16,708 nucleotides of DNA from an uncultured Prevotella sp. (lineage in GTDB: Bacteria > Bacteroidota > Bacteroidia > Bacteroidales > Bacteroidaceae). The translations under genes and the position numbers were made by a program. The DNA is taken from the NCBI GenBank assembly GCA_934202525.1, contig CAKPYB010000056.1, positions 1-16,708 on the forward strand. Reading direction: 5' to 3'. This document shows, in pieces, positions 4,405 through 16,098 of the stretch (positions are counted from its first letter, which is position 1; the number at the start of each line of letters is the position of its first letter). The notes under the pieces were generated by a model. It had not been told where the DNA came from. It was given only the letters and a program-made list of their open reading frames with translations, and made no database searches.

Positions 4405-6450
4405 ATGAACATAAGTACATTCATTAATATGGCCAGCAAGATTCCTTCATCTGGTCAGTTGGAAGGCCTGGTAACCTTCATGAAGGAAGATGAGAAACTC
4501 AGGTTTTTCACCGAGTCTTACCGGAAAACGGGGGATAAGTCGTACAAACACGATGCACCCCTCTTCGCCGTAGCCTGCATCTTCGAAGGCGGAAAAGGCA
4601 AGGACAACATCCGGAGTCTCACACATCTGTCGCTGGTCGACTTCGACCACATCACAGAGAAACCGGATGACGGCACTCTGCGCTCGCTCAAAGAGAGAAT
4701 CTGCCACGATGCCCACACCCTGCTCTGCTACGTTACCATGAGCGGCAACGGACTGCGCGTCATCTACCGCTACGAAGGCGAGGATTATCCCGCCGCCTTC
4801 GCCATGGGAAACGACTACTACGCGCATCTCATCGGCAAGGAAAGCGATCCGCTCTGCAAGAACATCACAAGGCTCAGCGGACTCGCCTACGACCCCGAAG
4901 TCTATTTCAATCCTGAAGCTAAAGCCTTCAGCGCCGAGGAAATAAGCCATTTCCATTCAGCTACGCTCAAGACCACTCAGAAGAAAAAGAAACAGGAACG
5001 CATCGCCGACTACTACGAGAACATCATCAAACCCAAACTGGAAAGCGAACAGGTAAAGTACGAACCCGGCAACCACAACCAGTATGTGATGCGGGTGGGC
5101 TACATGATGGCTAAGAAACGGTACGACAGGAAGGAAGCCACCCAGTGGGCTATCAGGCAGTTTCCCGAATACGACGACGTAGAACAGGTGTTCAAATCGT
5201 GCTACGACAACACCACTCACCCCCAGAAGGCGAAGGCAGAAAACGGAAAGATTCCCTATGCCACCGTAGATGAAATCAAAGACTTCCTCGACGGGCATAT
5301 CAAACTCCGCTTCAACCTCATCACCCTGCGCTACGAGTATCTGAAGGGGAAATGGCGAATCCTCCAGGACCGCGATCTGAATACGCAATGGAGCAACATG
5401 TCGCTAACCGCAAGGGTGAGCAAGAGCGACATGATCAATGTCATCGAGAGCGACTATACACCGCCCTACAATCCCTTCACCGATTATCTGGAGAATCTCC
5501 CACCCTGGCAGAAAGGTGACAAGGATTATATTGCCGAACTCGCTGCCACGGTAAAGCTGAAGGGCACCCCGGTGATGCCCTTCTGCGAAGCCCTAAGGAA
5601 ATGGCTTGTGGCGATGATAGCAGGATGGATAGACGAAGGTGCCGTCAACAATGTCATCCTGGTGTTCATCGGCAGACAGGGCGCCTACAAGACCACCTGG
5701 TTCAACTATCTCCTGCCGCCGGAACTGAAGCAATACTTCTATACGAAGGCGAATGCCAGACGCATGACGAAGGATGATATCATCGCCCTTTCGCAGTATG
5801 CACTCATCTGTTATGAAGAGCTCGACACGATGAGTCCGTCGGAACTGAACCAGCTGAAGGCTGTGGTAACGATGCAGTATACCAACGAAAGGGCGGCATA
5901 CGGCCATTATGCCGAGCAGCGCAAGCATATCAACACCTTCTGCGGCACGGGCAACAATCCCGAGTTTTTGAGCGACCCTACCGGTAACCGTCGCTGGCTG
6001 CCCTACGAGATAGAGAGCATCCTCTCGCCCCGTGAGCATCCGTTCAATTACGAAGGCATCTACGCCCAGGCTTACGCCCTCTACAAGAGTGATTTCCGCT
6101 ATTGGTTCACCGATGAGGAGATAGAAAAGCAGAACCGGCACAACCGCGCTTTTGAGGCGCCTAGACTAGAACAGGAACTTGTGGATCTCTACTTCCGAAA
6201 GCCAACGGAGGCGGAGACAGGGGAGTTCGTGTCCATAGCCAGAGCGATGCAGATTATCAGTTGCAACATCTCCCAGAAGCTGAGCAGCACCAAGCTGGGC
6301 AGAGCTTTCAATGATCTCGGATTCGAAAAGATGCGCACCACCTACAACCGTGGGTACAGGGCGATTATCCGTACTGCCGAGGAAATCAAGGCATACCAGG
6401 TATCCCTCTGCATCAACTCGCAGCATTCCGATGATGATGCCCCGTTCTAG
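4405..6450 (+). CDS. BT4734-like primase fused to VirE-type superfamily 3 helicase
   Basis: The 681-residue protein combines two domains. The N-terminal part (about 1-200) matches the BT4734-like/VirE N-terminal family, related to archaeo-eukaryotic primases, with DFDH (79-82) and MSGNGLRV (112-119) as probable active-site pieces. The C-terminal part (about 350-640) is a VirE/D5-like SF3 ATPase: Walker A GRQGAYKT (423-430), Walker B LICYEELD (467-474), sensor-like CGTGN (513-517) and an arginine pair in GNRRW (527-531). Such proteins prime and unwind DNA for phage, plasmid or integrative elements and are frequent in Bacteroidales genomes. ATG 4405 is preceded by AGGAG. A run of palindromes and 22-bp repeats follows it, then a DUF4248 gene, suggesting a replication module remnant. 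The reading frame is intact. Confidence 0.85.
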   Translation: MNISTFINMASKIPSSGQLEGLVTFMKEDEKLRFFTESYRKTGDKSYKHDAPLFAVACIFEGGKGKDNIRSLTHLSLVDFDHITEKPDDGTLRSLKERICHDAHTLLCYVTMSGNGLRVIYRYEGEDYPAAFAMGNDYYAHLIGKESDPLCKNITRLSGLAYDPEVYFNPEAKAFSAEEISHFHSATLKTTQKKKKQERIADYYENIIKPKLESEQVKYEPGNHNQYVMRVGYMMAKKRYDRKEATQWAIRQFPEYDDVEQVFKSCYDNTTHPQKAKAENGKIPYATVDEIKDFLDGHIKLRFNLITLRYEYLKGKWRILQDRDLNTQWSNMSLTARVSKSDMINVIESDYTPPYNPFTDYLENLPPWQKGDKDYIAELAATVKLKGTPVMPFCEALRKWLVAMIAGWIDEGAVNNVILVFIGRQGAYKTTWFNYLLPPELKQYFYTKANARRMTKDDIIALSQYALICYEELDTMSPSELNQLKAVVTMQYTNERAAYGHYAEQRKHINTFCGTGNNPEFLSDPTGNRRWLPYEIESILSPREHPFNYEGIYAQAYALYKSDFRYWFTDEEIEKQNRHNRAFEAPRLEQELVDLYFRKPTEAETGEFVSIARAMQIISCNISQKLSSTKLGRAFNDLGFEKMRTTYNRGYRAIIRTAEEIKAYQVSLCINSQHSDDDAPF

Positions 6451-8375: not shown

Positions 8376-9518
8376 ATGAACAAACCGATAAACATTTTAG
8401 ATAAAGATTACTTGCAATGGGTCAAGGAACTCTGTAAGCGTTATCGCCAGAGCCAGATAAAGGCTGCGGTAAAGGTGAACCATGTTGTTCTTCAATTCTA
8501 TTGGGACCTAGGTAAAGACATTTGCAATAAAGAAGCAGAAAACAAGTATGGCAGCAAGTTTTATGCAACGTTGAGTCGAGATTTACGAAACGAAATACCA
8601 GATGCAGAAGGACTATCAGAAAGAAATTTGCGTTATACAAAAAAGTTCTATCAGCTTTATAATCAAAAGATTAAAATTTTGCAGCAAATTGCAGCAAATT
8701 CTGAAAGTGAAATTTTGCAGCAACCTGCTGCAAAATCTAATACAGAATTGGCAAGCCAAGAATTAGCAGCTCATATTATGCAAGATTTGTTCTCAGTGCC
8801 ATGGGGACATCAGATGTTGCTTATTGATAAATGTTCTGACGATGTAATAAAAGCTCTATTCTATGTACAACAAGTTGTTGAGAACGGCTGGAGCAGGAAT
8901 ATCCTTCACAATTACATAGACTCGTCTCTGTATGAGCGACAAGGGAAAGCTTTGAGCAATTTTACCCGCACATTACCTGAGGTCGGCAGCGATTTGGCAC
9001 AAGAAATCACAAGAGACCCATACAACTTTGCTTTCACTGGAATCACCAAACCATATAATGAGCGCATTCTTAAAGATGCTTTGCTCAACAATATCACCAA
9101 ATTTCTAACAGAACTTGGTACAGGTTTTGCCTACGTAGGCAAGGAATATCGCTTGCAGATTGGAGAGAAAGAGAACTTTATCGACTTGCTCTTTTATAAT
9201 TTGAACTTGTCATGCTACATAGTTCTGGAAGTCAAGATAGGTTCATTCACCTTTGCTGATGTCGGGCAACTTGGTGGTTATGTAGTAGCTTGTAACCACC
9301 TACTTCGCAAAGAGGGGCGTGACAATCCTACAATAGGTTTACTTATTTGCAAGGAGAAAGACCGTATCCAGGCACAGTATGCCCTGGAATCAAGCAGCCA
9401 ACCCATAGCTATTTCTGAGTACGATCTAGAAAAATTCTATCCTGAAAAATTGGAAGGAACTATGCCGACGATAGAGGAATGGGAAGCTAAGTTGGGGGGT
9501 AGCATTGAACACGAATAA
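8376..9518 (+). CDS. DUF1016 (YhcG-like) PD-(D/E)XK nuclease domain protein
   Basis: The 380-residue protein has the two-part DUF1016 build. An N-terminal helical domain (about 10-100) contains QFYWDLGKDI and LSERNLRYTKKFYQLY; a C-terminal YhcG-type nuclease fold (about 240-360) shows FIDLLFY and LEVKIG, giving D270 and E285-x-K287 as the PD-(D/E)XK metal site. Between them (about 101-135) is a low-complexity stretch of repeated LQQxAA words, matched by GCAGCAAATT repeats in the DNA. Family members are putative endonucleases, sometimes near restriction or mobile genes; no substrate is established. The gene is markedly more AT-rich than uvrA, a sign of transfer. It has its own promoter and an intrinsic terminator at 9661-9687. 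A distant paralogue is at 15052-16098. Confidence 0.85.
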   Translation: MNKPINILDKDYLQWVKELCKRYRQSQIKAAVKVNHVVLQFYWDLGKDICNKEAENKYGSKFYATLSRDLRNEIPDAEGLSERNLRYTKKFYQLYNQKIKILQQIAANSESEILQQPAAKSNTELASQELAAHIMQDLFSVPWGHQMLLIDKCSDDVIKALFYVQQVVENGWSRNILHNYIDSSLYERQGKALSNFTRTLPEVGSDLAQEITRDPYNFAFTGITKPYNERILKDALLNNITKFLTELGTGFAYVGKEYRLQIGEKENFIDLLFYNLNLSCYIVLEVKIGSFTFADVGQLGGYVVACNHLLRKEGRDNPTIGLLICKEKDRIQAQYALESSSQPIAISEYDLEKFYPEKLEGTMPTIEEWEAKLGGSIEHE

Positions 9519-9722: not shown

Positions 9723-9854
9723 TTACCACATATCTTCATTTCCATCCTCGGGACTTTTTCCTCCATTGAAACCAGGAGTTTCTGACCCTGCCAGCAACTG
9801 TTGGGCTTTTATCTCATGCACCTGCATTTCTGGTTTTATATATTCTTTCTTCAT
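9723..9854 (-). CDS. 43-residue MKKxYIxP-type small peptide downstream of the GLUG gene
   Basis: The minus-strand frame from ATG 9854 to TAA 9723-9725 reads MKKEYIKPEMQVHEIKAQQ, then LLAGS, then an acidic glycine-rich end ETPGFNGGKSPEDGNEDMW. Short frames that begin MKKxYIxPxM and carry a hydrophobic LLAGS-like segment before a Gly/Asp-rich tail recur in Prevotella and Bacteroides genomes as unannotated or hypothetical genes; this is a recollection of the pattern. It starts 12 nt after the stop of the large surface protein and precedes the operon terminator, so it is almost certainly co-transcribed. It has no signal peptide, cysteine or membrane helix. Leader-plus-core architecture is imaginable, but no modifying enzyme is visible nearby. 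Function unknown. Confidence 0.65.
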   Translation of the reverse strand: MKKEYIKPEMQVHEIKAQQLLAGSETPGFNGGKSPEDGNEDMW

Positions 9855-9866
9855 ATTGTGCTATTT

Positions 9867-12800
9867 TTATTTGATTACTACTTTCTTGTTGTTCTTTATG
9901 TATATGCCCTTTGTCGGATTGACTATCTTTCTACCTTGGAGGTCGAAGATTCCTTCAATAGTGCCATGACGCTGCACGTCAGTACCCATAATGGTGATTC
10001 CCTCTATGCCTGTTGTCTCGTTGCCGCCACCGAATACAAAGCTGCGAGCGAGTGCTGCCGATGATGGGTCTTTTGCTTCATTTTCAGATACTTTCAGATA
10101 AGCCTTTCCTGGAGTCGCCTTGAGACTTTTTCCGTCGTCCACACCGAGGTAGAAGCCGAGACCTTCTTTTTTTTCTGCTTTATTATATGTGAGACGATAG
10201 AGTTTACAACCGGCATCTGCTGTTACAGTCTTAGCTACAGCTGGTGTAGCCACAAGGTGGTTTTCATCAGAGGAAGCTGTTGTCAACTCATTTGTCTTGT
10301 TTGCATTGACATACTCTCCGTCTGTCTTCAGTAGCACACCCTCTTCCTTTGCCACTTGTTTGTCGCGTTGTGTCAATGTCAGCTTGCCACCGCTTACCGT
10401 TGCGTTGTAGACATTAAGCGATCTGTCTGAAGGAACAGAAAGGGTTACATCGTTTGTCAGATTGCTGAATGTTGCCCAATATGTATAGTTGCCATTTGCA
10501 TCCTTGTCGCCCTGTGCAGCCTTGATTACTTTATTGTCAGAGCCGGGAACGGGATATTGGTCCTTGCCTAACTGCTGTCCCCATGCCTGCTCAACTAAGG
10601 CTTTGCCTTCGGCAAGCAAATAAGCCACCTCACCGCTCTTCAGCTGCTCTGCGGTGAATGCCTTGATCACGTCAGCTTCATTCACGCCTTCAGGATAGGT
10701 CAATGAGCCTTCTCCGATAGCCTTGACAGCTTCACCTGTCTGCTCAGCTCCATTGATGGTCAGCTTAGCACTGCTGTTGTATGCCAAGATACCAGAAGCG
10801 GCGCTGGAGGATTTGCTTATGCGCCCAACAAGGAGACCGGCACGCTCTGTATCAGAAGTAGCAGTAACATTACCAGTGCCAAGCACATTGTTCAGATTGC
10901 ATATAACACCTTCTCCTATCAGGTTTCCGACATTATCTCTTCCAGTTATATCGCCATAGTTGGCACTGTTCTGGATGGTTCCTGAGTCAAAATATCCAAC
11001 CATGCCGCCAACTTGTCTGTACGTGCCTGTTACAGCACCATAATTGGCGCATGAAGTGATGGAATTGTCGGAACCGTAATACATACCTAAAATACCTCCG
11101 AGAGATCCCGTTCCCTTCACTTCTGCATGGTTTTCGCAGTTGCTGATGTTGCCCACAGCTATTCCTGCTATTCCGCCAGTTATATCTTTTCCTTCTACCG
11201 AACAGTTTCCTAAGGTCTTGATGTTTTCAAAAATACAAGAACCTGCGTATCCTGCCAAAATTCCAGTATAATAATTACCAGTATTCACCTTCGCATTGTC
11301 GAAAGTGATATTTTTGATGTTGCCACCAGCAAGATGACCGAAGAAACCGGCAAAAGCAGAGGTGGCATTGATGTAGAGATTACTGATGGTCTTCCCGTTG
11401 CCATCGAATGTACCTTGATACTTATTATCAAAGTTACCAATAGGAGTCCAGCTGAGCTCTGCTATCTGCTTTTCGGTATCAGCCTTATGGCATACTGTGC
11501 TCATATCAATTTCTTTCACCTCATCGGCAATCTTTGCGCAGACTAATGTGTTACATTCATTCACGCAGTCACGGAACCACGCCAGATGATCTGCCGTCTT
11601 CAGCACAAATGGTTCCGCCTCTGTTCCTTTACCAGTCATACCTGCTGGCAATTCACGATCAAGACCATTCATTTTTACATTGAGCTTGACTTCGCCTTCG
11701 ATGGCTTTGCCAAAAAATTCTCTTGCGCCGATATAATAAGTGGTGCCTTTCGTTACAGTATAGATGATTTTGAAGTCAGGCCAATTGCCAGAATCATCGT
11801 AAATCAAGCGAGATGCAGCCGTAGGGCTCTCCCACAGGGTGCCACAGGTATTATTGTCGTTGCTGTTTGCCGTCACCTCCAATGTACCATCTTCTGGAGC
11901 TGTATATTTATAAAGGTTGTAACCGCTGATTTTTTCCCGCTCGCCCTGCACCTTTCCGATTGTTATGGAATTGTTGCCCAATTTCAAGAAAGGAATTTCC
12001 TGTTGACACTTCGTACACTTGTCGTTCTCATCATATTCATGTCCGGTAGCTGATACTACTACAAGACTGCTCACCATTTGTGTCATTTGCTCGTTCGAGA
12101 AAGACTTATGACAAAGATTACATTCCCAATATTCGATGTTGCCATCTGTGGTGCAGGTAGCAGCCACGAATTTGTGATGTTTGGGACTATCGCCATGCTT
12201 AAACGTAAATGTGCCCTCTTGTGCAGGCTTGGTATTGGTAAATATACCTGTACCTTCCAGCTCGCCTAAACAATTCATTGTCAGATTACCATCCAAGTAA
12301 ACCTCATCAGCAGAGCCAAGTAAAGGATAATCGTTTGTGTTCAGTTTTTGTCCCCATCTTGCACTTCCTGATACGTTTTTCTGAAGCTGATTGGCAACCA
12401 ATCCGCTCTTCAACTGTTCTTCAGTAAATGCCATTATCTTTTCAGCTGATGTCAATGAGCCTCCTCCGATAGCCTTGACGGCATCGCCTGTCTGCTCAGT
12501 TCCATTGATGGTAAGCTTCGCGCTGCTGTTGTATGCCAAGATGCCAGAAGCGGTGCTGGAGGATTTTCTTATGTTTCCAACAAGGAGACCGGCAAGCTTT
12601 GCAGAAGTAGCAGTAACATTACCAGTGCCAAGCACATTGTTCAGGTTGCATTCTTCAGCAAGTCCTATCAAATTTCCGACATTATCAGTTCCCGTTACAT
12701 CGCCATAGTTGGCACTGTTCTGAATGGTTCCTGAGTTAAAATATCCAGCAATGCCACCAACGCTCTCTCCCGAGCCTGTTACGACACCATAATTGGCGCA

Positions 12801-13463
12801 TGAAGTGATGGAATTACCGGAATAGGCAGCTACAACTCCTCCGAGATATCTTATACCCTTCACTGTTGCACGGTTTTCGCAGTTGCTGATGTTGCCGTTA
12901 GCAACTCCTGCTATTCCGCCAACGTAGTTTTCTCCTTCTACCGAACAGTTTGCCAAGGTCTTGATATTTTCAATAATACAAGAACCTGCGTTTCCTACCA
13001 AAATTCCAAAATTATAACCACCAGTATTCTTCACCCTCGCATTGTCGAAAGTGATATTCTTGATACTGCCAACATAAGCATAGCCGAAGAAACCGGTATA
13101 ATTAGAGGTGGCATTGATGTAGAGATTGCTGATAGTCTTCCCGTTGCCATCAAATGTACCTTGAAACCAAGTGATAGGAGTCCAGCTGAGCTCATCTGTA
13201 TACGTGGTGCCATCAGCCGCATGGCAGAACTCTGCCAAGTCAATATCTTCAGTCAGCGTGGCTGAAACACGATTATTACCACTATTCACCTGGTCGCGGA
13301 ACCACGCCAGTTCGGCTGCTGTGGATATCTTATAAGGTTTGTCTGCTGAGCCATCACCTTTGGAAGGCGGCGTTTGTGCCCATGCCCCCCCATAAGGCAT
13401 GAGGATAGCCATCACGAGCAGCAGCATCGTGAATAGCCTGTTTCTTTGTTTTTTGTTATTCAT
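9867..13463 (-). CDS. Secreted GLUG-repeat surface protein, possible adhesin
   Basis: The 1198-residue protein starts with a signal peptide (1-29, hydrophobic LFTMLLLVMAILM core, cut expected after AWA or AWAQ). It then has two large homologous modules (about 31-390 and 605-965), each opening with a xLAWFRDxVN segment and GTFDGNGKTISNLYINATS. Strings of GLUG-like repeats follow, such as GGIAGxxxGNISNCEN, which fold as beta-solenoids in adhesins. Between them lies a cysteine-rich part (about 430-490, CNLC and CTKC) and a beta-rich domain (about 500-600). The C-terminus (about 1150-1198) ends GIFDLQGRKIVNP...GIYIKNNKKVVIK, a sorting-like tail common in Bacteroidales surface proteins. It follows a small membrane protein gene and precedes a 43-residue peptide gene. 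Expression is probably governed by the AraC operator at 13786-13860. Confidence 0.85.
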   Translation of the reverse strand: MNNKKQRNRLFTMLLLVMAILMPYGGAWAQTPPSKGDGSADKPYKISTAAELAWFRDQVNSGNNRVSATLTEDIDLAEFCHAADGTTYTDELSWTPITWFQGTFDGNGKTISNLYINATSNYTGFFGYAYVGSIKNITFDNARVKNTGGYNFGILVGNAGSCIIENIKTLANCSVEGENYVGGIAGVANGNISNCENRATVKGIRYLGGVVAAYSGNSITSCANYGVVTGSGESVGGIAGYFNSGTIQNSANYGDVTGTDNVGNLIGLAEECNLNNVLGTGNVTATSAKLAGLLVGNIRKSSSTASGILAYNSSAKLTINGTEQTGDAVKAIGGGSLTSAEKIMAFTEEQLKSGLVANQLQKNVSGSARWGQKLNTNDYPLLGSADEVYLDGNLTMNCLGELEGTGIFTNTKPAQEGTFTFKHGDSPKHHKFVAATCTTDGNIEYWECNLCHKSFSNEQMTQMVSSLVVVSATGHEYDENDKCTKCQQEIPFLKLGNNSITIGKVQGEREKISGYNLYKYTAPEDGTLEVTANSNDNNTCGTLWESPTAASRLIYDDSGNWPDFKIIYTVTKGTTYYIGAREFFGKAIEGEVKLNVKMNGLDRELPAGMTGKGTEAEPFVLKTADHLAWFRDCVNECNTLVCAKIADEVKEIDMSTVCHKADTEKQIAELSWTPIGNFDNKYQGTFDGNGKTISNLYINATSAFAGFFGHLAGGNIKNITFDNAKVNTGNYYTGILAGYAGSCIFENIKTLGNCSVEGKDITGGIAGIAVGNISNCENHAEVKGTGSLGGILGMYYGSDNSITSCANYGAVTGTYRQVGGMVGYFDSGTIQNSANYGDITGRDNVGNLIGEGVICNLNNVLGTGNVTATSDTERAGLLVGRISKSSSAASGILAYNSSAKLTINGAEQTGEAVKAIGEGSLTYPEGVNEADVIKAFTAEQLKSGEVAYLLAEGKALVEQAWGQQLGKDQYPVPGSDNKVIKAAQGDKDANGNYTYWATFSNLTNDVTLSVPSDRSLNVYNATVSGGKLTLTQRDKQVAKEEGVLLKTDGEYVNANKTNELTTASSDENHLVATPAVAKTVTADAGCKLYRLTYNKAEKKEGLGFYLGVDDGKSLKATPGKAYLKVSENEAKDPSSAALARSFVFGGGNETTGIEGITIMGTDVQRHGTIEGIFDLQGRKIVNPTKGIYIKNNKKVVIK
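10701..11458 (-). repeat. Direct DNA duplication inside the GLUG gene, second copy (encodes C-terminal module)
   Basis: This stretch aligns at the DNA level with 12453-13192, at an offset of about 1746-1752 nt, with many identical runs and small indels. Examples are TAGGAGTCCAGCTGAGCT at 11441 and 13175, and TCGCCATAGTTGGCACTGTT in both. The nucleotide similarity shows a fairly recent internal duplication or ongoing homogenisation. Confidence 0.8.
12453..13192 (-). repeat. Direct DNA duplication inside the GLUG gene, first copy (encodes N-terminal module)
   Basis: Partner of 10701-11458. Recombination between the two copies would remove or add about 1.75 kb, which is close to a multiple of three, so length variants of the surface protein could arise in frame. 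Confidence 0.8.
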
Positions 13464-13491
13464 ATCTGTAAATTATTATTATTCTACTTTC

Positions 13492-13755
13492 TTACATATT
13501 TTCTCTCATTGCCATCAGATATACTGTAAATCCCAGGATGATGACGAAAGTCTGTCCGAGAAACAGATAGATATAATATCTTCCTCTCTTGATGAAATCA
13601 CAGAAGCTGTAGCGAGCCTTGTAGTTTTCATCAAGATATATCCTGTAGTCTTGAACCATGGCATAGCCCATGACTATAGCGAACAACAGAAGACACAATG
13701 CCACTATAAGAATAGCCTGTTCCTCTTTCATGAAAGTTTCTATTATATTTTCCAT
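13492..13755 (-). CDS. Small membrane protein with two predicted helices
   Basis: The frame encodes up to 87 residues with two hydrophobic segments, AILIVALCLLLFAIVMGYAM (14-33) and YYIYLFLGQTFVIILGFTVY (60-79). They are joined by a charged loop with DENYKARYSF. I do not recognise the family. The listed start (ATG 13755) is the longest possible, but the -7 box at 13760-13767 would put the transcript start at about 13754, so the second ATG at 13731 (79 residues) is the more likely real start. It lies 28 nt upstream of the GLUG protein gene in the same direction and should be in its operon. It may help export, anchor or signal for the surface protein; that is an inference from position only. 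Confidence 0.65.
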   Translation of the reverse strand: MENIIETFMKEEQAILIVALCLLLFAIVMGYAMVQDYRIYLDENYKARYSFCDFIKRGRYYIYLFLGQTFVIILGFTVYLMAMRENM

Positions 13756-13759
13756 GGTG

Positions 13760-13767
13760 CAAAGATA
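13760..13767 (-). promoter_or_regulatory. -7 box of the surface-protein operon, no -33 box
   Basis: On the minus strand TATCTTTG matches TAnnTTTG exactly. About 20 nt upstream, where TTTG should be, the sequence is instead the nearest copy of the AGGTGTCTACTT operator (13786-13797). A promoter with a good -7 box, a missing -33 box and an activator site in its place is the expected form for activator-dependent transcription. Confidence 0.65.
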
Positions 13768-13785
13768 GTGTTTTTCTTCGGAAAA

Positions 13786-13861
13786 AGGTGTCTACTTGCC
13801 CCACTTAGGTGTCTACTTCCTACAAAATAGGTGTCTACTTGGTGGGGGAAGTAGACACCTA
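13786..13861 (-). promoter_or_regulatory. Phased operator array, three direct and one inverted copy of AGGTGTCTACTT
   Basis: Identical 12-mers lie at 13786-13797, 13807-13818 and 13829-13840; the inverse, AAGTAGACACCT, is at 13849-13860. Start-to-start steps are 21, 22 and 20 bp, about two helical turns, so all would face the same side of DNA. The last direct copy and the inverted copy form a 13-bp hairpin with an 8-nt loop just after the AraC gene stop. Relative to the presumed start at 13754 the centres are near -38, -59, -81 and -101. The gene just upstream encodes an AraC-domain protein, the natural ligand. Confidence 0.8.
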
Positions 13862-13871
13862 AGGCGTGATT

Positions 13872-15038
13872 TTATTGTATTTTTGCTCTCCAGACAGTTG
13901 GTGAGCAACCTTCTTTCTCTTTGAATATGCGATAGAGATAGGAGCGTGAAGAGAAGCCACATTCGGCAGAAATGATGTCGTTGTTGTAGTCGGGATAGTC
14001 GAGCATCATCTTCTTTGCTGCCTCGAAACGTACCTCGGCAAGCCAGATGCGGAAGGTGGAGTTAAGGCACGCAGTGAAGTAGCGTGACAGCTCGTTCTTG
14101 GAAATGTTCAGCGAGCGTGACAGGGTGAACATGTTTACAGAAGTGTCTTTATAGCCCAAATCGGCGCACCACTTGTCAAGCATCTCCTTGATAAATGCCT
14201 GACGCTCCTGAGAAATTGACTGTAAATTTTCTTTATCGTCTATAGGTTCTGCATACTGCCCATTGGAGCTTTCCAAAGATGCTCCCCCATTTTCAGTTTC
14301 TTCATCTGCTATGGCTGCGCTTTCTTCTTCCTCCTTATCCAAGAGTTCCTCGGTAGGAACGTAATTGTAGCCCAATGCCACGAAACTCAGGTTGAAGAAA
14401 AGAATTGAGAGCAAAGCCAATGGTCCTATTATATATAATAAGGTGGTAGAGAGGATGACGAAAGGCATGGTAAGGGTAGAGAAGAACAGGGCGAAGACAC
14501 TGGCTCGGGCATATCGCACGTAGGGCAGCATGTCGCCACCTGTCATCAGCTCTAACATTTTCTTGCGTTTCCGCATCTCAATCATAATCATATAGATGCA
14601 ATACGCTACGTTTGTGCCGAACAATACGAGCATCGCATAGAGCCAGTTGCCAATGTTAAGACTTCCGCTATTGCTGTAGCCTATGCAGAAAACTGCTATG
14701 ATGGCGGCATAAATGCAAGCGCAGACGATGTTCATCTTTCGGCGGTTGGCATGGGTCGCCTCAATGTTGTATATGCCCATGGCGATAGTGGTGATGCATG
14801 GGGTATAGACAAGAATGTTGAAAATAGCTCCCAAGTCATCGCTTTTCGCACGAAAGCCCAAGCGCATCTGCAAGAGATATTGTATGGCAAGTCCCATCAT
14901 GCCTGCAAGTATCATCCAGCGTGACCACTCATAGCGTCGGTTGGTCCACTTCATGTGCAGGTGGGTGATGCCGAGGATAAGGGCATTGATGAGCATGAAG
15001 ATGAAACATGCGAACTGAAGGAAATATAATGAGTCCAT
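13872..15038 (-). CDS. Membrane-bound AraC-family transcription regulator with seven predicted helices
   Basis: The 388-residue protein has about seven hydrophobic segments (roughly 4-26, 41-58, 70-90, 102-120, 130-152, 180-200, 203-222). An acidic linker follows (about 229-270, rich in E, D and S), then an AraC/XylS DNA-binding domain (about 285-388). Its two helix-turn-helix units are visible as FTLSRSLNISKNELSRYF and DIISAECGFSSRSYLYRIFK. The design suggests that a signal sensed in or across the inner membrane changes DNA binding. I chose ATG 15038; the frame is open to a GTG at 15074 inside the upstream gene, but MDSLYFLQF begins the first helix and sits 13 nt after the upstream stop. The tandem operator directly after its stop is the likely target, controlling the surface-protein operon. 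Confidence 0.85.
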   Translation of the reverse strand: MDSLYFLQFACFIFMLINALILGITHLHMKWTNRRYEWSRWMILAGMMGLAIQYLLQMRLGFRAKSDDLGAIFNILVYTPCITTIAMGIYNIEATHANRRKMNIVCACIYAAIIAVFCIGYSNSGSLNIGNWLYAMLVLFGTNVAYCIYMIMIEMRKRKKMLELMTGGDMLPYVRYARASVFALFFSTLTMPFVILSTTLLYIIGPLALLSILFFNLSFVALGYNYVPTEELLDKEEEESAAIADEETENGGASLESSNGQYAEPIDDKENLQSISQERQAFIKEMLDKWCADLGYKDTSVNMFTLSRSLNISKNELSRYFTACLNSTFRIWLAEVRFEAAKKMMLDYPDYNNDIISAECGFSSRSYLYRIFKEKEGCSPTVWRAKIQ

Positions 15039-15051
15039 ATTGTTTGTTTCC

Positions 15052-16098
15052 CTAATTGTTTCTCTTCTCCTCACTAAATGCCTTTATCTCATCAGCAAGG
15101 ACTTTCTGTAATTTCTCTTTCGGTACTATCAACTGATAATCCGCCACTCCAATAGGTTTTCCCATATCTTCAAGTGCGAGTTCCACCTCTACACGGTCTT
15201 TCTCCGCACAAAGTATGATTCCTATAGAACGGTTCTCGTCAGCACCACGTTCAAGACGGTCAAGCAGAGACAGATAATAGTTCATCTTACCTGCATACTC
15301 TGGTTTGAAAGGACCTATCTTTAGGTCAACAGCAACAAGGCAGCGCAGTCCACGATGGAAAAACAACATATCTACCTTACTTTCTTTACCATTGTATTCC
15401 AATACATGCTGGTTGCCAATGAAAGTGAAGCCATTACCAAGTTCCATAAGGAAACGAGTGATAGCTTTTACTAGGCGGTCTTCAAGTTCAAGCTCCAGAA
15501 TGGGACTTGTTACTCCCAAGAAACCAAGATTGTAGCTACTGTTAAACACCTCGTTGGCATACTGCGCCTGTTCGGCAGGAAGAGTGCGGTCGAAATTGTT
15601 ATCTACTCGTGCCAATGCCTGTGTCTCATACATATTGAGTTTGATGGCATTGAGCAACAAGTCACGATTCCAACCTTTGGTTATAGTTTCCTGAGCATAA
15701 TATAGCGTGGTTGCATCATTAAATCCCTTGCTCAGCAGTAGCAGATTGTGCGACCACGGCAAAAGTGCTACGGAGCGTAGCACTTTTTCATCATGTCCCG
15801 CGTAACGTTCATAAAATTTCTTCATGTTCCAAAGTTGACGTGGTGAAACACCCATCTTCGGGTATCGTTCTTTCAGGTCTGCTGACAATCTTCTTACAAC
15901 GCTGTCACCATACCCACTTTCAATCTTGCGCTCATGAAGCATTTGACCAATCTCCCAATAGGCGGTAGATACGTAGCCATTGACATGTCGGGCTATTTCT
16001 GTCCGTGCATGCTCAATTACTGCGACAGCGTGTCGCAGTATCTCAGCATAATCGCTACTTCCTATTGAGAGTTTGTTGTCTTTATTGTCTGTTGTCAT
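15052..16098 (-). CDS. Second DUF1016 (YhcG-like) PD-(D/E)XK nuclease domain protein
   Basis: This 348-residue protein has the DUF1016 N-terminal helical domain (about 20-100; STAYWEIGQMLHERKIESGYG and SPRQLWNMKKFYERYAG) and a YhcG-type nuclease domain (about 215-330). The metal site reads KVDMLFF with D243, then VAVDLKIG with D258-x-K260, so it has Asp where the other copy (8376-9518) has Glu. Both fit the PD-(D/E)XK rule. The shared order NLGFLGVT/NFAFTGIT shows common descent, but the two proteins are far apart in sequence. The gene lies 13 nt upstream of the AraC regulator and is probably in its operon. A -7 box TACCTTTG (minus strand, 16150-16143) is upstream. Role unknown; a nucleic-acid-acting enzyme is likely. 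Confidence 0.85.
   Translation of the reverse strand: MTTDNKDNKLSIGSSDYAEILRHAVAVIEHARTEIARHVNGYVSTAYWEIGQMLHERKIESGYGDSVVRRLSADLKERYPKMGVSPRQLWNMKKFYERYAGHDEKVLRSVALLPWSHNLLLLSKGFNDATTLYYAQETITKGWNRDLLLNAIKLNMYETQALARVDNNFDRTLPAEQAQYANEVFNSSYNLGFLGVTSPILELELEDRLVKAITRFLMELGNGFTFIGNQHVLEYNGKESKVDMLFFHRGLRCLVAVDLKIGPFKPEYAGKMNYYLSLLDRLERGADENRSIGIILCAEKDRVEVELALEDMGKPIGVADYQLIVPKEKLQKVLADEIKAFSEEKRNN

Follow-up and report, generated by a model that had tools for sequence, protein, structure and literature searches.

In Escherichia coli, AraC binds at araI1-araI2 to direct half-sites about 21 base pairs (bp) apart on one face of the DNA, with the proximal one overlapping the -35 region, and lambdoid phages exchange a repressor together with its operators as immunity regions. 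Transmembrane transcription regulators such as ToxR and TcpP are, according to passages of a survey, single-pass proteins in about 56% of cases, some of them having a partner protein (PMC10269533). For the Spy1336/R28-Spy1337 locus of Streptococcus pyogenes, the abstract of a further report states that the length of a homopolymer alters transcript levels (PMC7098570). The locus analyzed in this study lies at positions 9,723 to 15,038 of a stretch of 16,708 nucleotides (nt) from an uncultured Prevotella sp. (assembly GCA_934202525.1, contig CAKPYB010000056.1), the whole of which is referred to as the window. It consists of a gene for an AraC-type regulator with a predicted membrane domain, an array of four repeats and an operon of three open reading frames (ORFs). 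The reading favored here, with a probability of about 0.8, is that the AraC protein is a membrane-tethered one-component activator, which would control this operon via the array.

The original prediction had described four copies of one 12-mer, three direct and one inverted, between the AraC gene and the operon, and exact copies indeed stand at these places: AGGTGTCTACTT occurs at 13786, 13807 and 13829 of the plus strand and its reverse complement at 13849, the start-to-start steps of the direct copies being 21 and 22. With an expectation of about 7.5e-6 for additional copies of any one 12-mer in this span, both strands counted, the three extra copies are not a product of chance. The ORF positions also agree with the gene order given there. 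All operon and regulator genes lie on the minus strand in the order AraC, array, small protein, protein of 1198 amino acids (aa), 43-aa ORF. By the Bacteroidota promoter consensus (-33 and -7 boxes), the copy nearest to the operon occupies, as had been proposed, the place of the expected -33 box, which is missing; it ends 19 nt before a -7 box that is present.

Relatives of the locus were drawn from a genus set of 398 genomes, of which 60 contained AraC matches at an E value of 1e-18 or better; loci were read or scanned in 33 of these 60, with 20 regions being fetched (L, G and C numbers denote loci, genomes and contigs, respectively). The window resembles Segatella copri, and its AraC protein is 90% identical to that of S. 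copri iAQ1173 (L005; genome G423), the closest named relative. The nearest genome available for comparison has 21% of its words in common with the window. A close clade of 14 loci was defined by an AraC protein about 57% or more identical to that of the window where this was measurable, or by the same membrane domain or helix-turn-helix (HTH) region. It comprises the window, L005, L035 (from G001), L036 to L041, L077, C75 (in L068), an AraC remnant on G411:C38 (in L048), and L130 and L132, both from other genera. The inverted pair is present in all 14 loci. At least one clear further direct site was found in 12 of them (L036 and L041 have degenerate ones or none), and the -7 box stands in register in 11, being absent in L041 and L130; the C75 contig stops before it. 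In this register the sites end 62, 40 and 19 nt before the -7 box, with the inverted site at 79-81 nt (11 of 14 loci). Four loci (window, L005, L035, L077) have a clear 19-nt site; in the other seven with a box, it is degenerate or altered. The ATG of the small membrane gene starts 4 nt after the -7 box in all seven loci of this kind (window, L005, L035, L037, L039, L040, L077), and due to this constant distance the operon message is likely leaderless.

Outside the close clade, the whole register was seen in L043 (AraC identity 38%). L044 (33%) contains another core and no 19-nt site, its sites being displaced from the register by one base, which is why it falls below the threshold of the register scan; the register is partly present with other cores in L010, L042 and L045, and L134 keeps the spacing with another core. 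The register scan, for which alike words had to be present at the 62- and 40-nt positions, covered 32 loci, five of them second copies of the same place, which included 22 distinct distant homologues (22-28% identity). The single distant homologue that passed was L025 (27%), and with 20 random register shifts 0 or 1 of 44 loci passed. In L025, words resembling TTTGAACAC stand at all three positions of the 62/40/19 register, 722 nt past the end of the AraC gene, possibly a further type of array. As the array is found in the close clade and is mostly absent from distant homologues, it marks this clade and not the wider family. The original prediction had named loss of the array in relatives that keep the AraC gene as a refutation. 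Such a loss was observed in none of the 14 close loci, but it was observed in most homologues under 30% identity, which are other proteins of the wider family.

A search of related genomes for co-variation between the repeat and the AraC recognition helix, as suggested originally, showed that the triplet in GAA-NNN-GACACC and residue 367 change together. According to the AraC alignment, the second recognition helix reads SRSY or ARTY in loci with Tyr at this position and RTH in loci with His, and Tyr367 goes with GTA and His with TGC. Among clear sites, the Tyr loci contain four GTA (window), three GTA and one GTG (L005), three GTA each (L037, L038, L132), two GTA (L041), two GTA and one TGC (C75) or one GTA and one GTG (L036). 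The His loci contain four TGC (L077), three TGC each (L039, L040, C38, L130) or two TGC and two GGA (L035). In 12 of the 14 close loci the expected triplet thus outnumbers every other one, and in L035 and L036 it shares first place; TGC predominates in none of the Tyr loci, and GTA is absent from the His loci. Residue 367 aligns inside the second HTH of E. coli AraC and of AdpA and falls in a predicted helix (365-376). Among the 94 columns of the HTH alignment, no other sets the first seven Tyr and four His loci apart. On the membrane-domain tree the Tyr/His label needs four changes, at least three of them forced by well supported branches. L130 (His, TGC) and L132 (Tyr, GTA) both came out as predicted in writing beforehand.

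The pattern of the inverted pair with a free triplet occurs at 15 places in the 398 genomes, eight of them beside this AraC clade or its remnant and seven elsewhere; the same pattern read backwards, which served as control, occurs at eight. In G423, RGGTGTC-N-ACTT has 13 matches: the eight with a leading A are all located in arrays, the five with a leading G outside of them. In five genomes, GAATGCGACACC was found at 18 places (control: one), 15 of them in arrays and the other three being G423:C23, G001:601188 and G067:C15, and the shorter GAAGTAGACAC at 19 places, 13 in arrays and six outside, five of these in G353 (control: 26). The place on C23 (G423:C23:68926; L126 about 2427-2466) is an inverted repeat with TGC operator arms, with no direct sites and no -7 box in register, and may be a decoy, a terminator or a remnant. 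The co-change of triplet and residue, the register kept in the close clade and an inverted pair above control only beside this clade all suggest that the window's AraC protein is the likely reader of the array.

Comparison of individual loci further suggests that exchange affects the DNA-binding half jointly with its operators, as a single block set between flanks that hardly differ. Between L039 and L037, which stem from different genomes, the membrane-domain DNA is 97-99% identical over the first 500 bases and 90-94% over the next 200, and the small membrane gene is 97-100% identical, whereas linker, HTH and operators reach only 58-80%. L039 and L040, on the other hand, are 94-97% identical from the HTH to the promoter. 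The best middle block spans about 480 bases, starting at codon 277 of L039 and reaching 24 bases into the next gene. Of 268 informative sites, those inside the block are L040-like in 139 and L037-like in five cases and those outside in 23 and 101, respectively, which none of 300 permutations reaches. Protein homologues show the same mosaic. Among the 120 listed homologues of the truncated ORF of L037, 111 have a readable helix, 62 being ARTY and 49 RTH; the membrane domains of these ARTY and RTH proteins are 97-100% identical to that of L037, and some pairs have identical first 225 residues and an HTH identity of 81%. Of the 120 listed homologues of the window's AraC, 114 are SRSY, five ARTY and one SRSQ, with membrane domains being 97-99% identical (proteins alone). 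Two further loci were observed in this context. The AraC remnant on G411:C38 retains the tail of the membrane domain and the second HTH and is accompanied by an in-register array, which looks as though HTH and operators were retained as a unit. In L130, DNA unlike that of L039 starts near the expected -7 position (after oriented 3323), followed by a 421-aa ORF that we take to resemble an integrase, and the array seems to be cut from its operon.

Several observations weigh against an array read by this regulator through residue 367. Some separating column also exists for 17 of 330 equally sized splits and a fixed one for three, and on the HTH tree just one of the three Tyr/His changes is forced. 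Mixed arrays occur as well: L035 combines a His helix with two GGA besides its two TGC sites, C75 has one TGC besides two GTA, L036 has two degenerate sites with other triplets in addition to GTA and GTG, and the promoter-nearest site is TGC-like in the Tyr loci L037, L038 and L132. No array was found in L046, L047 and L131 or in 21 of the 22 scanned homologues at 22-28% identity. Among five newly examined loci the full register was clear in L132 alone, with L131 showing none and L133 a part of it. Contrary to the written predictions, L130 is without its -7 box, L134 combines the spacing with a different core, L133 pairs its Gln with TTA instead of TCA or TCG, and the frame break of L132 (G485:C15) is not at a G run. 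Finally, the inverted pair may end the AraC transcript.

An operon described as self-contained, as in the original prediction, does not fit the relatives: the module has different neighbors on either side from locus to locus, and an orphan array occurs in one S. copri genome. In G423, regulators of both classes are encoded, the Tyr type at C12 with GTA sites and the His type at C10 with four TGC sites. A TGC array that is complete and in register is located on C53, a contig with none of the 15 AraC matches of this genome, and precedes a 1287-aa protein that is 66% identical to the window's surface protein over 999 aligned positions. The C10 module has the small membrane gene and no large gene on its strand within the next 1.7 kilobases (kb). 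The simplest reading appears to be that the C10 regulator serves the C53 array. With a complete array having no AraC gene beside it, action of the regulator in trans is likely, and the orphan array was the reason to drop the idea of a self-contained module. Shortly before it, tandem copies of a short CATACAGGAGGGCGTGCTGGG-like unit were observed (L125 about 1951-2090). The proposal of a one-protein relay from the membrane to the promoter is still the best reading and is backed by the comparison of relatives.

For such a relay, the following mechanism can be envisaged. The seven-helix domain would hold the regulator in the membrane and set its state with or without a signal, and the flexible linker would carry the AraC DNA-binding domain. 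Each domain would bind one GAA-NNN-GACACC half-site, so that three sites two helical turns apart and one inverted site could load several copies of the regulator. The copy at the missing -33 position would contact RNA polymerase, for which AraC bound at araI2 of E. coli, which makes this contact, serves as a model. The operon would then yield the small membrane protein and the large, probably exported protein. DNA binding and activation are what we infer from the layout and from the relatives.

Among the alternatives, the one that survives best, albeit as an unlikely one, is that the inverted pair is mainly an intrinsic terminator of the AraC gene and that only the direct copies are operators. 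The pair forms a hairpin of 13 pairs followed by TTTTG, with fold z-scores of -5.2 to -8.7 in four loci, and in G001 the arms still pair though both differ from the direct sites; a terminator scan yielded two such sites in 1.6 kb, compared to 1.3 in shuffled sequences. However, the inverted site is kept at 80 nt in the orphan array, where neither an AraC gene precedes it nor a T run follows, L043 keeps the site without the hairpin/T-run arrangement, and the arms of C75 do not match each other. The inverted pair may also serve as operator and terminator both. It is rather improbable that the AraC protein binds the array to repress or loop the operon until a signal arrives. The array has its distal site inverted relative to the direct ones, which is reminiscent of DNA looping by E. 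coli AraC, and the comparative evidence speaks for recognition and not for its sign; yet a good -7 box with the nearest site in place of the -33 box is an activator-dependent layout, and without a -33 box there should be little to repress. That a different factor reads the array, or that the array remains from a mobile element or invertible DNA, is very improbable: recombination sites are also marked by short inverted and direct repeats, and C65 and C75 of G423 end in such an array, but the register to the -7 box is fixed, the triplet changes along with the AraC helix, the inverted pair exceeds its control nowhere but next to this clade, and in the arrays inspected the inverted site is always farthest from the promoter, all of which speaks against it.

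Regarding the activator itself, the Pfam scores of the window's regulator exceed the respective cut-offs for HTH_18 (64.1 bits; cut-off 33.6) and HTH_AraC (30.2; cut-off 26.6), and with two HTH motifs in its C-terminal domain it corresponds to the AraC/XylS type. Sequence matches include AdpA (E 5.2e-5) and E. coli AraC (E 7.5e-4), and the best Foldseek matches are AraC domains (best E 1.7e-3, none under E 0.001). By prediction only, it also unites a DNA-binding domain and a membrane region in one protein, as is typical for transmembrane regulators. The seven membrane helices named originally are returned by AlphaFold2 at moderate confidence (3-28, 34-60, 68-93, 97-124, 131-164, 171-196 and 198-223; mean predicted local distance difference test, pLDDT, 68), but a hydropathy scan at a threshold of 1.5 gives five strong segments; the topology suggested by the model is accordingly a putative one. 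Rhodopsins matched the seven-helix domain weakly (Foldseek E about 0.03, target template modeling score about 0.5), and with a model of moderate quality homology to a known receptor is not claimed. The AraC clade was found in none of 111 candidate stretches of viral contigs, and no RNA family reached the gathering threshold in the window.

Runs of G suggest a second switch of expression: for related loci it would lie in the linker of the regulator, for the window in the signal peptide of the surface protein. In L037, L038, L040 and C75 the AraC frame breaks at seven to eight G in the linker; L130 has seven G there with the frame open. As the window linker contains only five G, its own regulator is probably not switched by slippage. 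Of 120 listed regulator homologues, 71 have a G-tract linker (text pattern), with 62 continuing into the HTH, seven stopping and two being without the helix. The seven end behind the tract in one of the two other frames, as far as frames can be inferred from proteins, with no DNA, and one truncated entry represents 544 member sequences. For comparison, the other fetched loci, some of which overlap, contain three runs of at least seven G or C in 505,725 bases. Among 120 listed homologues of the 1198-aa protein, eight begin with MGGAWAQ and one with MWGGAWAQ, as expected from a frame shift in the run; homologue P0300 has an extra Gly in frame, and some homologues are without the full G run. Frame breaks at the run and both in-frame and out-of-frame alleles are therefore found in nature, with the frames of homologues inferred from proteins, and gene-caller choices or assembly errors could add to the apparent shifts. 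Judged by titles, counts and abstract starts, none of the papers listed by literature searches, which covered the first entries of longer lists, reports slippage phase variation in S. copri or a membrane AraC protein of pilus loci.

Table 1. Positions of the regulator, the array and the operon in the window.
Feature	Position	Strand	Basis
Membrane AraC regulator, 388 aa	13872..15038	-	ORF; HTH_18 E 1.5e-17 at residues 306-385
N-terminal membrane domain, residues 1-223, seven predicted helices	14370..15038	-	AlphaFold2
Linker, residues 224-276, largely disordered	14211..14369	-	pLDDT under 50 at residues 222-272
AraC-type DNA-binding domain, two HTH motifs, residues 277-388	13875..14210	-	Profile match, model, sequence alignment
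Tyr367 codon, second recognition helix; residue co-varying with operator triplet	13938..13940	-	Locus alignment
Inverted operator site, 81 nt before -7 box	13849..13860	+	Exact match
Operator site ending 62 nt before -7 box	13829..13840	-	Exact match
Operator site ending 40 nt before -7 box	13807..13818	-	Exact match
Operator site nearest promoter; its GACACC ends 19 nt before -7 box	13786..13797	-	Exact match
Hairpin of inverted site pair, then TTTTG; possible AraC transcript terminator	13828..13861	-	Fold and terminator scans
-7 box TATCTTTG; ATG of next gene starts 4 nt after	13760..13767	-	Sequence
87-aa protein, two predicted membrane segments, first operon gene	13492..13755	-	ORF; hydropathy
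1198-aa protein, signal-peptide-like start, two GLUG-like halves; hypothetical protein in Segatella copri	9867..13463	-	ORF; no Pfam family
Run of seven G, codons 25-27 (signal peptide) of 1198-aa protein; likely slippage switch	13385..13391	-	Sequence, homologues
43-aa peptide ORF, last of operon	9723..9854	-	ORF

With regard to the operon products, ORFs similar to the 87-aa protein lie at the same place in L005, L035, L077 and L037-L040. The large protein had been called a GLUG protein, a description that Pfam does not support: the Pfam GLUG motif (PF07581) does not match the 1198-aa protein up to E 5. Its counterpart in L005, a 719-aa protein at the same place that is 33% identical over 420 aligned positions, does have a GLUG match (E 1.7e-10). 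A model of residues 1-430 is strand-rich and, with a mean pLDDT of 54.6, too weak for a fold search. From its start, the large protein is probably exported and would be placed at the cell surface. The 43-aa peptide yielded matches at E 0.026-0.92 in three of five genomes and none in G001 and G423. YIKP...LAGS was observed near the start of small peptides, namely this 43-aa peptide after the surface gene and one in L035 (G001; after 7395) behind the small membrane gene; such peptides might be exported or processed.

The cargo differs in the relatives. L037 encodes an OmpA-family protein as well as the type V pilus components Mfa2 anchor (E 1.6e-27) and fimbrillins (Mfa_like_1, E 4.6e-44), and L038-L040 resemble L037 by their ORFs; L036 carries a 1868-aa LamG protein and L005 the GLUG protein. 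Type V pilus genes (Mfa2 anchor, fimbrillin) are absent from the window operon as judged by ORFs and Pfam. Genes for YhcG-type (DUF1016/PDDEXK) nucleases flank the operon at 8376-9518 (+) and 15052-16098 (-), with 13 bases between the end of the second and the start of AraC; the AraC gene of L005 is preceded by another ORF, of 572 aa. A BT4734-like/VapE-like primase-helicase gene at 4405-6450 (+) of the window may be the sign of an integrated element in the vicinity of the operon.

S. copri belongs to the most abundant bacteria of the human gut; among the papers listed by literature searches, as judged by titles, counts and abstract starts, none was found to explain the control of its pili and related surface proteins. 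There is about an even chance that S. copri and its kin possess a combinatorial surface switchboard, in which several membrane AraC regulators, each insulated by a code of one residue and one triplet, can be re-addressed to other surface operons by exchange of a cassette of about 480 bp (HTH, operators and promoter), with regulators or cargo being flipped by slippage at G runs. If so, control would rest with a dedicated regulator, its operator code could be traced to a single residue and a single base triplet, and the surface met by host and phages would have a source of cell-to-cell diversity. Orphan arrays would be extra addresses of the switchboard, and the system would be a natural example of paralogous regulators kept from cross-talk by a reader traveling with its sites. 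Swapping reader and address together would moreover be a natural way to make orthogonal regulators from a fixed sensor. The original prediction included neither the joint swapping of HTH and operators nor the hairpin formed by the inverted pair, and it named neither the G runs nor the pilus genes of related loci.

Compared to known systems, the locus is like E. coli AraC in having direct half-sites about 21 bp apart, the promoter-proximal one at the -35 region, and an AraC-type HTH pair. It is unlike it in its predicted seven-helix domain, which replaces the soluble sugar-binding domain of AraC, and in its four-site array, which E. coli AraC does not have. As in the lambdoid immunity regions, a DNA reader and its sites would move as one block with the matched pair kept; unlike the phage repressors, just the HTH half of a membrane regulator moves here, together with its promoter region. 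Spy1337 is also a member of the AraC family. The Spy1336/R28-Spy1337 locus shares with the window a regulator gene beside a surface-protein gene and a homopolymer, but there the tract is intergenic and consists of T, and the abstract and section list of the report name no membrane domain or operator array (PMC7098570). Phase-variable surface loci are, like the switchboard proposed here, a form of reversible surface control in gut Bacteroidales; they use DNA inversion instead of the slippage proposed for the window, the words "slipped" and "poly-G" being absent from the main text of that report (PMC12632263). The surveyed transmembrane regulators likewise unite a membrane region and a DNA-binding domain in one protein that acts from the membrane, which is predicted here, and differ in being single-pass in about 56% of cases, in contrast to the seven helices predicted for the window; the main text of the survey contains no word beginning with AraC, and its passages no exchange of HTH and operators (PMC10269533). 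The proposed system would be a variant of membrane one-component regulation, of which the matched reader/operator cassettes and the G runs are more interesting than the relay.

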